Assembly (NCBI GenBank): GCA_030142985.1
Contig: CP125320.1
Span: 501,639-565,638 of the forward strand
DNA: 64,000 nt
From: Candidatus Ruthturnera sp. Tsphm01
GTDB lineage: Bacteria > Pseudomonadota > Gammaproteobacteria > PS1 > Pseudothioglobaceae
Direction of reading: 5' to 3'
Positions 15,042 to 26,331 of the stretch are shown piece after piece; the stretch's first letter is position 1; each line of letters starts with the position of its first letter. The notes beneath the pieces are model-generated. The model was not told the DNA's origin, did not search any database, and saw only the letters and a list, made by a program, of their open reading frames with translations. The translations under genes and the position numbers were made by a program.

Positions 15042-15626
15042 TTATTCTAACAATTCAAAAGCATTAATCACACTTTCAGCCACATCAACAATACGCTTGT
15101 TTTTATTCATTGCCATTTTACGTAACGATTGATAAGCCTCATCTTCATTAATATTTTTATGTTGTATTAACAAGCCTTTGGCTCTTTCAACTGCTTTGCG
15201 CTCTGAAAGCTTATTTCTAGTCGCATCTAACTCATCTTTAAGTGCTTGAAATTCTCTAAATCTAGCAATCGCCACATCAATAATGGGTTGCACCCTGTTC
15301 TCTTCAAGCCCATCAACAATATAAGCATGCACGCTAGATTTAATAGCAGAACTTGTCATTCTAGGGCTTGATTCCTCGGTAAACATAACAATAGGTTTAG
15401 GTTTAGTTTTATTAATATCTGTTAAATTTGCAAATACTTGCTCATCGGGAATATCTGCATTAACAATCACCACATCTGCATGTGTCATTTCATTGCTGTC
15501 TTGTAAGTTTGAGCTGTCACTCATACGGCAAATCACTTCGTGACCCTTGTCTTGCAAAGCTCTACGTAACATGGCTGAACGCCCTGTGTTTTTATCAACT
15601 AAGATAATTTTTAAAGCTGTATTCAC
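15042..15626 (-). CDS. ANTAR-domain response regulator (NasT/AmiR type)
   Basis: The first 115 or so residues form a receiver-like domain (KIILVDKNTGRSAMLRRALQ, then VVIVNADIPDE with the acceptor region at Asp58). A coiled coil follows (FREFQALKDELDATRNKLSE) and then an RNA-binding ANTAR domain, ERAKGLLIQHKNINEDEAYQ and SLRKMAMNKNKRIVDVAE. Such proteins bind paired hairpins in nascent mRNA and prevent termination, often of nitrogen genes. Its start overlaps the CBS gene stop by four bases. Its position beside the amt genes suggests a nitrogen role, which is inference. Confidence 0.9.
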   Translation of the reverse strand: MNTALKIILVDKNTGRSAMLRRALQDKGHEVICRMSDSSNLQDSNEMTHADVVIVNADIPDEQVFANLTDINKTKPKPIVMFTEESSPRMTSSAIKSSVHAYIVDGLEENRVQPIIDVAIARFREFQALKDELDATRNKLSERKAVERAKGLLIQHKNINEDEAYQSLRKMAMNKNKRIVDVAESVINAFELLE

Positions 15627-16063
15627 TTAATGCGTGATTTAAAAATAGCCCTATGCACGTCACCAATACTAACAATGCCGACTAACTTATTATTGTGAGT
15701 CACTGGAATCCTTCTGAAATTTTTAAGCCACATAGTAGATGCTGCTTTAAGGCATGGCATACTTAAATCAATACTAGAAACATCTTTAGTCATCAATTCG
15801 CCCACTTTAACATTCATTGTGTCTTTGTAATTATGCTCCATATTTTCAAAATCAAAATGCGTATTGCTCATCACTTCATCTAGTTTTGGAAACATATGTT
15901 GTAGAATATCTTTTTCAGAGATAATGCCGACTAAATTATTATCATCATCCACCACTGGAGCGCCACTAATACGATCCATCACCATGATAATAGCAACGTC
16001 TTTGACTAGTTGATTAGGGGTGATTGTTTTCACATTAGTTGACATAATATCTTGAACTTGCAT
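15623..16063 (-). CDS. CBS-domain protein
   Basis: A 146-residue protein made of two CBS domains (VQDIMSTNVKTITPNQLVKD to ISEKDILQ, about 2-57, and VGELMTKDVSSIDLSMPCLK to SIGDVHRAI, about 86-141). CBS pairs bind adenine nucleotides and act as energy sensors. It is translationally coupled to the ANTAR regulator downstream, so it may set the activity of that regulator, though no direct evidence is in the sequence. Confidence 0.9.
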   Translation of the reverse strand: MQVQDIMSTNVKTITPNQLVKDVAIIMVMDRISGAPVVDDDNNLVGIISEKDILQHMFPKLDEVMSNTHFDFENMEHNYKDTMNVKVGELMTKDVSSIDLSMPCLKAASTMWLKNFRRIPVTHNNKLVGIVSIGDVHRAIFKSRIK

Positions 16064-16986: not shown

Positions 16987-18198
16987 TTATTTGGTAAATT
17001 CAGGATAAGCCTCCAAACCACATTCCGAAATATCAACACCTGAGAATTCCTCCTCTTCAGAAACTCGAATACCCATTGTCATCTTAAGTACTAACCATAA
17101 CACCATTGAAGTGCCAAATACCCAAATAAAAATTGTTCCTGCACCTGCCAACTGTCCGCTAAATGACACGCCACTATTAGTTAATGGCACTGCTAACAAA
17201 CCCCATAAACCGACCACACCATGGACAGAAATTGCACCCACTGGATCATCAATCTTAAACACTCTATCTAAAACATTAATCGAAAATACCACCAAAATAC
17301 CACCAACAGCACCAATCAATGTCGCTTCCAAAGCACTTGGTGTATCCGGACCTGCGGTAATTGCCACCAATCCAGCCAATGCGCCATTAAGTGCCATGGT
17401 TAAATCTGCCTTGCCCCATAATAGTTTAACCAATAATAATGCTGCAATTACACCGCCTGCTGCTGCTGCGTTGGTGTTTAAAAATACCATTGCTACTGCA
17501 TTAGCACTCTCCTTACTTGCCATTGCTAGCACCGAGCCACCATTAAATCCAAACCAACCCATCCACAAAATAAACGTCCCTAAAGTTGCCATTGGCATAT
17601 TAGCACCAGGAATTGCTCTAGAATTGCCTTCGGCGTCATATTTACCCTTACGAGCGCCTAACGCTAATACACCAGCCAAAGCTGCTGCTGCGCCTGCCAT
17701 ATGTACAATACCCGAACCTGCAAAATCAGAAAAACCTAAATCAGCCAATTTAAACAAACCAAAAACTGCATCGCCATTCCAAGTCCAAGCACCTTCCATT
17801 GGATAAATTACTGCTGTGAATACAACAGCAAAAGAAAAAAAAGCAAATAACTTCATTCTTTCTGCTACTGCGCCTGAAACAATTGACATCGCTGTTGCAA
17901 CAAATACGACTTGAAAATAAAAATCTGCCGCATTTGAATATTTATCACCCGTACCACTAATACCATCTAGTAGAATACCACCACCATACATAATATCATA
18001 ACCAACCACCATATACATCGTACAAGCAATTGCAAATAGACCAATATTTTTAGTCAGAATTTCAGCCGTATTTTTACTACGAACCAATCCTGCTTCTAAC
18101 ATCGAAAAACCAGCAGCCATCCACATAACCAACGCACCCATTACTAAAAAGTAAAAAGTATCTAGGGCGAATTGTATTTCAATTAATGTATTTTCCAT
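16987..18198 (-). CDS. amtB: Ammonium transporter (first copy)
   Basis: Inner-membrane ammonia channel, 403 residues, 11 predicted membrane segments. The pore histidines are in GIVHMAGAAAALAG and ISVHGVVGLWG, and the phrase WMGWFGFNGGS is present. There is no separate signal peptide, unlike the second copy. It follows glnK by 9 bases. The C-terminal tail (RVSEEEEFSGVDISECGLEA) is the part P-II proteins dock on. Confidence 0.95.
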   Translation of the reverse strand: MENTLIEIQFALDTFYFLVMGALVMWMAAGFSMLEAGLVRSKNTAEILTKNIGLFAIACTMYMVVGYDIMYGGGILLDGISGTGDKYSNAADFYFQVVFVATAMSIVSGAVAERMKLFAFFSFAVVFTAVIYPMEGAWTWNGDAVFGLFKLADLGFSDFAGSGIVHMAGAAAALAGVLALGARKGKYDAEGNSRAIPGANMPMATLGTFILWMGWFGFNGGSVLAMASKESANAVAMVFLNTNAAAAGGVIAALLLVKLLWGKADLTMALNGALAGLVAITAGPDTPSALEATLIGAVGGILVVFSINVLDRVFKIDDPVGAISVHGVVGLWGLLAVPLTNSGVSFSGQLAGAGTIFIWVFGTSMVLWLVLKMTMGIRVSEEEEFSGVDISECGLEAYPEFTK

Positions 18199-18207
18199 AT
18201 TGCCTCC

Positions 18208-18555
<348 letters not shown>

Positions 18556-18578: not shown

Positions 18579-18630
18579 AAAAAAAAGCCAATTGTTATGT
18601 TTGTAAAAAAATACAAACTCAACGACTGGC
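18579..18630 (-). terminator. Strong hairpin with T8 directly before glnK
   Basis: On the minus strand GCCA...TGGC (18630 to 18587) encloses a GTTG/CAAT segment and a perfect GTTTGTA/TACAAAC stem with a six-base loop, followed by eight T (18586-18579). It begins two bases after the stop of the small ORF and ends 24 bases before the glnK start. It may end the ligA transcript, control glnK by readthrough, or both. A weak TTGAGT-17-CATAAC promoter overlaps it. Confidence 0.7.
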
Positions 18631-18631
18631 C

Positions 18632-18874
18632 TCAATGCCTTTTATTTTCAATTTCATCATGAAACTGACAAAAAAAAAGACACTTACCTAGAATTTCTTT
18701 TTCAAAAAATCTAAATAAACGTCTATGTTCTTTTACTAAACACCCACCTTTAGGCGTTAACTGGTAATCAGTATAACCATAAAAACAAGACAATGTTGTT
18801 GTTTTTAACAAAAAAATCGTATCATTAATGCTATTTATTGTATGGTTAAATTTTAGATAAATAATCAGCTTCAA
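18632..18874 (-). CDS. Small cysteine-containing protein, function unknown
   Basis: Open frame of up to 80 codons after ligA, overlapping its end by 29 bases. The last 50 residues look protein-like (CFYGYTDYQLTPKGGCLVKE, HRRLFRFFEKEILGKCLFFC), with five Cys. The only possible starts are TTG codons (18874, 18811 or 18793), none with a good ribosome binding site. I do not recognise the family. A T8 hairpin follows directly after the stop, so it would be the last gene of the ligA transcript. Confidence 0.4.
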   Translation of the reverse strand: MKLIIYLKFNHTINSINDTIFLLKTTTLSCFYGYTDYQLTPKGGCLVKEHRRLFRFFEKEILGKCLFFCQFHDEIENKRH

Positions 18875-25065: not shown

Positions 25066-26331
25066 GAGACCTTTGCATAAATCAACTAAAAACCCAACAA
25101 TCTAGTAAAATAACACCCATCTAAAAACAACTTTAAAAATATCAAAAATGTCTTGGAAAAACACCCAACAAAACTCATTTGCAGATTCTCTTGTTGTTGA
25201 GCATAAGTCTCTGTCATAACTGGATGATGTATATAACATCATCAATTGGAATGAGATAGAACAAACACTTTCGAACTTGTATTCATCTAGACTAGGTGCA
25301 CCTAGTTATCCGTCACTGATGATGTTTAAAATCCTAATCCTTCAAGTTTGGTACGGTCTAAATGATGAGGCGCTAGAAAAGCAAATTGCCAGAGATTTAA
25401 TGTTCAGACGTTTTATTGATTTGTCTTTGTCTGAAAATGTGCCTGATCATTCTAGCATTTGGCGTTTCAGGCAACTACTCAGCACCGAGAAATTACTAGC
25501 GCCTCTACTAGAGCAAATCAATACCCATCTTGAACAAAATTCAATCATTGTTTCCTTGGGTTCAATCAACATCATTGATGCCACCGTTATAGAAGCCAAA
25601 CAATCACGCAAGCGTAAAGGCAAGGATGGCAACAACACTCAAGACAAAGAGGCAAAATACAATGTCAAAATAGCAGCCGATGGCAAACGTAAAACCACCT
25701 ATGGTTTTAAAATGCACGCCAATACCGATGAAGATGGTTTTGTTAAGAAAATGACTTACACTCCAGGTAATGTACACGACTCACAAGAGTTTGATAAATT
25801 ATTAGAGGTAGAACGCACTAACAGTAAAATAAAAACATGTGGACAAGTCTATGCTGATAGCGCTTATGCCAATAAAAACAATGATGAAAAACTAGGCAAA
25901 GAAAATAATAAAATATTGCACCGTGCCTACAGAAACAAGCCTTTAACCAAGCAACAGAAACAAGAGAATAAACAACGCTCATCCATTCGCTATATTGTTG
26001 AGCACACTTTTGGACTACTTAAGCTTCATCACGGATTAGCCAAGGCAAGATACCTTGGACTAGAAAGAAACAAAACCAGAGCGCAACTAATTGCCATGAG
26101 TCACAACCTTAAAACTGGAATGAACATTTTTAAACAGATGCGAGACTTGCAGGATTGTTGCGTCCAATGAGTGGCAAAAGGGTAAAAATAGAAAAATGTG
26201 GCGATGAAAACTCGGATAAGCAAGATGTTTTTTAGGTTTTTATAGAAAAATAGGGAAAATTTTGAAAATATTTTTGAAAAATTGTAAAAGTTGAAATTAG
26301 GATGGGGAATTATGAATTATTCAAAGGTCTC
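25066..26331 (+). mobile_element. IS5-type insertion sequence, full length but transposase interrupted
   Basis: Terminal inverted repeats are GAGACCTTTGCATAA on the left (25066) and TTCAAAGGTCTC on the right (ending 26331). AGGGG stands on both outer sides (25061-25065 and 26332-26336), a possible target duplication. The element is 1266 bp with one transposase. A truncated near-identical copy is at 10580-10808. It sits between the transposase fragment and trmD. Confidence 0.85.
25148..26170 (+). pseudogene. IS5-family transposase with in-frame stop
   Basis: From ATG 25148 the frame reads MSWKNTQQNSFADSLVVEHK and reaches a TAA at 25217-25219 (codon 24), then continues in the same frame for 317 codons with the whole catalytic region: IIDATVIEAK (first Asp), VYADSAYANK (second Asp) and IRYIVEHTFG (Glu). 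The open part from 25277 begins with TTG only. A single nonsense change thus probably inactivates a recently active gene, unless suppressed or restarted internally. Confidence 0.85.

Follow-up and report, generated by a model that had tools for sequence, protein, structure and literature searches.

A predicted tandem of ANTAR-type attenuators in the leaders of glnK-amtB and nirB in Candidatus Ruthturnera sp. Tsphm01 and its relatives

Introduction

Published ANTAR sites consist of two hairpins whose hexaloops begin with A and have G as the fourth base (A1/G4); a linker of 5-12 nt separates the hairpins, and the second overlaps the 5' arm of a terminator (PMC3369931; PMC3369936). Leaders of this kind were predicted in 2012 ahead of genes for P-II proteins, ammonium transporters and nitrite reductases, with 13 sites spread over six transcription units in Desulfotomaculum acetoxidans (PMC3369931).

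In this study, we analysed a window of 64,000 nt from Candidatus Ruthturnera sp. Tsphm01 (contig CP125320.1), together with its family relatives, among them Candidatus Thioglobus, SUP05, Candidatus Ruthia, Candidatus Vesicomyosocius and the thiotrophic symbionts of Bathymodiolus. A long hairpin with a T8 tract, here T2, had originally been noticed directly before a glnK gene. Our reading, to which we give a probability of about 0.88, is that T2 is the second terminator of a leader with two serial ANTAR attenuators, that this leader is opened by the NasT-like protein encoded in the same cluster, and that nirB-narK is controlled together with glnK-amtB.

Results

The hairpin and the cluster behind it comprise the following features:

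18579..18630, minus strand: T2, intrinsic terminator of unit 2 (stem 18630-18587, T8 tract 18586-18579)
18208..18555, minus strand: glnK1, predicted first controlled gene (Pfam P-II, E 6e-30; Tyr51 present)
16987..18198, minus strand: amtB1, ammonium transporter, marine subtype (TIGR03644, 619 bits against a cut-off of 514)
15623..16063, minus strand: CBS-domain protein, in part of the family only
15042..15626, minus strand: ANTAR protein, NasT-like (pseudo-receiver plus ANTAR), proposed antiterminator (Pfam, E 6e-19)

T2 ends 23 nt before the start of glnK1 (ATG at 18555, minus strand). The 71-nt stretch that contains it had a folding energy of -24.4 kcal/mol, compared with an average of -9.6 for its shuffles (z -5.65), and none of 200 shuffles was as stable; the entire 290-nt gap between ligA and glnK was also unusually structured (z -5.26). 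Across 29 relatives, 11 pairs of T2 showed changes on both sides, with 65 both-side-changed cells against 18.7 in shuffles (0 of 500 shuffles reached this value) and at most 7 in slid versions. Stability and covariation thus bear out the hairpin of the original prediction, and its statement that no promoter has space behind the hairpin also held, as none fits between T2 and the ribosome-binding site. The weak start that it had offered at TTGAGT-17-CATAAC is not needed: this match sits within the T2 stem, and a TATAAT-like box precedes hairpin P1 instead. A promoter inside T2 was dropped as a candidate, being unnecessary and not conserved as such.

The ANTAR gene, which had been placed in the same block, was confirmed there, and in the family it usually lies behind glnK1-amtB1, with or without a CBS-domain gene. 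In the window the CBS and ANTAR genes overlap by 4 bases (15623-15626), which suggests translational coupling. The CBS protein was rejected as an obligatory sensor, because its gene is absent beside the ANTAR gene in the leader-bearing genomes G014, G031 and G034.

T2 proved to form the final portion of a conserved leader, about 185 nt long, with two consecutive ANTAR-type attenuators. The earlier elements, which the original prediction had missed, are a further terminator, T1 (18723-18670), the hairpins P1, P2, P1' and P2', and a conserved -10 box upstream of all. From 5' to 3' on the minus strand, they are:

18770..18775, minus strand: -10 box TATACT (TATAAT in most relatives), with a weak -35 and a predicted RNA start at about 18763
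18739..18758, minus strand: P1, recruitment hairpin of unit 1, AACGCCU[AAAGGU]GGGUGUU (loop, covariation and its own fold)
18717..18730, minus strand: P2, antiterminator hairpin of unit 1, GAAC[AUAGAC]GUUU, overlapping the 5' arm of T1
18670..18723, minus strand: T1, intrinsic terminator of unit 1 (stem 18723-18679, T9 tract 18678-18670)
18648..18668, minus strand: P1', hairpin of unit 2 (covariation, loops and fold)
18628..18639, minus strand: P2', antiterminator hairpin of unit 2, GGC[AUUGAG]GCC, overlapping the 5' arm of T2

The P1-P2 and P1'-P2' linkers are 8 nt each in the window, against an ANTAR range of about 5-12 nt (PMC3369931). We aligned 34 leaders and found the same order in them: TATAAT box, P1, T1, P1', a GG-AUNGAA-GCC motif, T2, ribosome-binding site and gene. 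An exact TATAAT stood at a fixed spacing before P1 in 30 of the 34, the window having TATACT, while no conserved -35 box was found across them. When 58 relatives were searched at the DNA level, the stretch 18731-18566 was found to be kept before glnK throughout the family; several genomes carry extra copies, and all of these directly precede a gene for a NirB-type nitrite reductase. Joining P1 and P1' into a single pair around T1 was rejected, since the linker would be far too long and every terminator has its own P2.

We then assessed covariation in the remaining helices. The number of both-side-changed cells was 21 for P1+P2 (8.2 in shuffles), 20 for T1 (6.3) and 18 for P1'+P2' (5.6), and in each case 0 of 500 shuffles reached the observed value. 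In T1, 97% of cells were paired and 7 pairs had changes on both sides. When the partner was slid by 1-3 columns, most of the covariation signal was gone. These slid controls, together with the loop signature, weigh more than the shuffles, because related sequences may beat shuffles without structure. The P2 stems are short, with 3-4 pairs, and consist partly of terminator bases, so that some of their covariation is that of T1 and T2. The paired ANTAR hairpins for which a covariance check had originally been proposed were found in the leader, and all its helices covary.

Folding of the window RNA gave a matching picture. When the RNA was cut at P2 or P2', the two hairpins of that unit folded; when it ran through the 3' arm, the terminator folded instead, about 14-16 kcal/mol more stable. 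The complete RNA folded into P1 with T1, and T2. The leader of nirB in the same genome folded alike, except that the four-base P2 was absent from the minimum-energy fold.

A loop scan revealed A1/G4 loops at matching places in most leaders, with the consensus CC[AAAGRY]GG for P1, GAAC[AUWGRC]GUUU for P2 in the foot of T1 and GGY[AUNGAR]GCC for P2' in the foot of T2. In the alignment, A1 was present in 31/32 P1 loops, 32/32 P2 loops and 29/29 P2' loops, and G4 in 32/32, 31/32 and 28/29, respectively; positions 3, 5 and 6 of these loops vary while A1 and G4 are nearly invariant. In unit 2 of the window, the A1/G4 hexaloop is that of P2'. The P1' loop is a hexaloop in several relatives (AAAGAG/AAGGAU) and shorter in others, including the window; because it is short in this genus, unit 2 may respond weakly there.

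Among the 26 terminators that a simple rule identified in the window, only T1 had the full paired motif, and the P2 part was present in T2 and one other. A terminator-like site at about 7324 (minus strand) has a P2-type A1/G4 loop in its foot and no P1, possibly by chance. As a control, 278 other terminators from the window and other loci, with copies of known leaders excluded, were scanned, and 12 had the paired hexaloop motif. Ten of these 12 lay before nitrogen or serine genes (glnK, nirB, narK, urtA, serC and a NasS/NrtA-like gene) or within a leader in which the model had detected unit 1; of the other two, one lay within the amtB coding sequence and one before a gene without an assignment.

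The ANTAR gene at 15042-15626 is the only one in its genome, and the family as a rule has one per genome. Its product is a receiver-ANTAR protein of the NasT kind, 34-52% identical to ANTAR proteins of other families, most of whose genes have an NMT1_2 gene alongside. The phospho-acceptor Asp of the receiver is replaced by Asn (VIVNADIP). Compared with the RNA-contact residues listed for EutV (PMC8934654), 9 of 11 were identical (R142, K143, K149, E160, Y164, R168, M172, N173 and R177), and the two changes in the alignment were K147 to Arg and R175 to Asn. Within the class, several other families have a NasS-like gene next to the one for ANTAR. A search for NasS-like proteins (PF13379, NMT1_2) gave no match in the own genome, and of 37 family genomes only one exceeded the cut-off, weakly, at 24.7 bits. 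Sigma54 was clear in only 4 of the 37, the own genome among them; owing to this rarity, NtrC-sigma54 control is unavailable to most of the family.

To follow the leader across genomes, we built covariance models for unit 1 and unit 2, whose E-values are rough. In the own genome they identified a second double leader outside the window (C1:243815-243997; 63 and 77 bits), which directly precedes nirB (TIGR02374, 740 bits against a cut-off of 578), a NarK-family transporter gene and a PP2C/kinase gene. A double leader stands before the nitrite-reductase operon in most relatives as well; narK alone, urtA, serC and serB are further targets, each seen in one genome or a few. Among 83 family genomes, unit 1 was detected in 70, unit 2 in 65 and the ANTAR gene in 68; in the 49 near-complete ones the counts were 48, 48 and 47. 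The sole near-complete genome without unit 1 (G019) also lacks the ANTAR gene and glnK. G007 has both the ANTAR gene and the nirB leader but no glnK1-type match. Among the matches listed for the 83 genomes, unit 2 directly followed unit 1 in 88 of 109 sense-strand unit-1 matches. When 369 genomes of the class were searched with the unit-1 model, only G038 and G134 matched outside the family, and weakly, so this form of leader is essentially family-specific at that sensitivity. The elements of the leader, their overlaps and covariation, its duplication and its distribution are direct observations on the genomes.

Several relatives carry altered leaders. In G010 (L018), unit 1 and its promoter are lost and unit 2 directly follows ligA. 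In G009 (L007), the inner part of T1 is lost, while the base of the stem and the T tract are kept. In the 1.0-Mb clam symbionts G001, G004, G005 and G008 (L016, L014, L019 and L015), unit 2 before glnK has decayed and the nirB leader is intact; most of these glnK leaders have lost the G4 loop of P2'. This decay suggests relaxed control of ammonium uptake in the host. In G029 and G033 (L180/L181), an ANTAR leader is followed by an apparent 11-codon remnant of a glnK start, which overlaps the beginning of serB. A duplicate of the leader, with part of glnK attached, seems to have been put to new use before this serine-biosynthesis gene. G022 (L182) has a unit-1 leader before serC.

Of the options raised originally for glnK, conditional termination by the ANTAR protein is the one that these data support, through the paired A1/G4 hexaloop hairpins that overlap the 5' arms of two terminators, their covariation, family-wide conservation and co-occurrence with the ANTAR gene. 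Weighing against this reading are the short P1' loop in the genus, the lack of a conserved -35 box, the decayed unit 2 before glnK in the 1.0-Mb symbionts, the short P2 stems, the rough E-values of the models and the case of G007. We also considered whether T1 and T2 are ordinary ligA terminators, with the glnK promoter inside or after T2. T2 does come after ligA and could terminate, and its stem holds the TTGAGT-17-CATAAC match; however, the double leader with its own TATAAT box also precedes nirB, where ligA is not upstream, conserved A1/G4 loops overlap both 5' arms, and a promoter would not fit between T2 and the ribosome-binding site, so that this explanation is very improbable. Still less credible is a riboswitch or ribosome-sensing leader, with glutamine, ammonium or another small molecule bound directly. 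A conserved structured leader with terminators before nitrogen genes would suit it, but Rfam gave no match to the leader at gathering or relaxed thresholds, the ANTAR motif accounts for all hairpins and leaves no complex aptamer core, and the leader tracks ANTAR presence. It is just as hard to credit that the two terminators release a small RNA of 90-185 nt which acts in trans, with glnK control as only a side effect: two strong terminators would yield short RNAs and the own genome has two copies, but each copy lies directly 5' of a coding start and points the same way as the gene, and the loops bear the signature of an ANTAR site.

The second glnK-amtB pair of the window (24516-22893, minus strand) was matched by neither RNA model, and no comparable hairpin with a T tract was found upstream of it, in agreement with the earlier claim that it lacks the hairpin. 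The "normal promoter" ascribed to it amounts to a 9/12 match, of a kind no commoner there than chance. The leaders of the two copies differ, as had been supposed, and their regulation may differ too. An IS5-family transposase gene (window 25277-26170) lies near this pair.

Discussion

The promoter, the termination, the binding of the ANTAR protein and the direction of control are inferred from sequence, and the mechanism of serial ANTAR attenuation would run as follows. Transcription would start near 18763, and by default RNA polymerase would stop at T1 (about 90 nt) or, once past it, at T2 (about 185 nt). The active ANTAR protein would bind the hexaloops and hold P2 and P2'; since the foot of each terminator's 5' arm is then occupied, neither T1 nor T2 would form, and glnK-amtB and any co-transcribed downstream genes would be made. 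The same protein would open the double leader before nirB-narK, and because it is common to both leaders, ammonium uptake and nitrate assimilation would form one regulon. Two units in series would probably make the off state tighter and the response steeper. As the ANTAR gene lies downstream in the glnK-amtB cluster, positive autoregulation is likely, if the transcript extends that far.

Our guess for the input signal is general nitrogen limitation, because NasS is missing and family leaders also precede urea-transport and ammonium genes. A bolder scenario, which we put forward tentatively and consider rather unlikely as a whole, is that NasT, having parted from NasS, was relocated to the glnK-amtB operon and became a general nitrogen-limitation regulator gated by a new partner, e.g. 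GlnK, with the doubled attenuators acting as a tight AND-like lock in lineages mostly without sigma54.

The serial-attenuator reading predicts how nitrogen uptake is switched in abundant marine sulfur oxidizers and animal symbionts, most of which lack sigma54 and hence the textbook route through NtrC. It also provides a natural example of an antitermination lock in tandem form and a NasT without NasS with a testable signal. The natural variants (G010 with unit 1 lost, G009 with T1 trimmed and the reduced symbionts with unit 2 decayed) separate the roles of the two units.

Among known systems, the eut leaders that EutV controls in Enterococcus faecalis (Ramesh 2012, PMC3369931; structure, PMC8934654) are alike in their dual A1/G4 hexaloop hairpins with a short linker, in the overlap of P2 with the 5' arm of an intrinsic terminator and in the conserved RNA-contact residues of the protein. 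They differ in that the eut system has four terminators before four different genes, whereas the glnK leader has two complete units in series, and in that EutV is phosphorylated, whereas the ANTAR protein of the window has no phospho-Asp. The NasS-NasT and NasR systems (PMC3795266, PMC3369936) have in common with the present case a protein of the NasT type and a leader ahead of genes for nitrite reductase and nitrate transport. Unlike in NasS-NasT, the search for a NasS-like (NMT1_2) protein was negative in the own genome and in nearly all family genomes, the ANTAR gene lies with glnK-amtB and not with nasS, and the leader is doubled and common to glnK. The sites of Desulfotomaculum acetoxidans resemble the present ones in the kinds of target gene, the motif and the occurrence of several sites per transcription unit (accessible text of PMC3369931). 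That part of the text makes no statement on a tandem within one leader and does not name the Thioglobus/SUP05 family, and our literature search gave no account of glnK being under ANTAR control in SUP05/Thioglobus. Since multiple ANTAR sites per transcription unit are on record there, tandems may exist elsewhere. Judged by the literature that we searched, what appears to be new is that two complete attenuators stand in a conserved tandem within one leader, that glnK-amtB and nirB share this tandem leader, and that a NasT without NasS is its predicted regulator.
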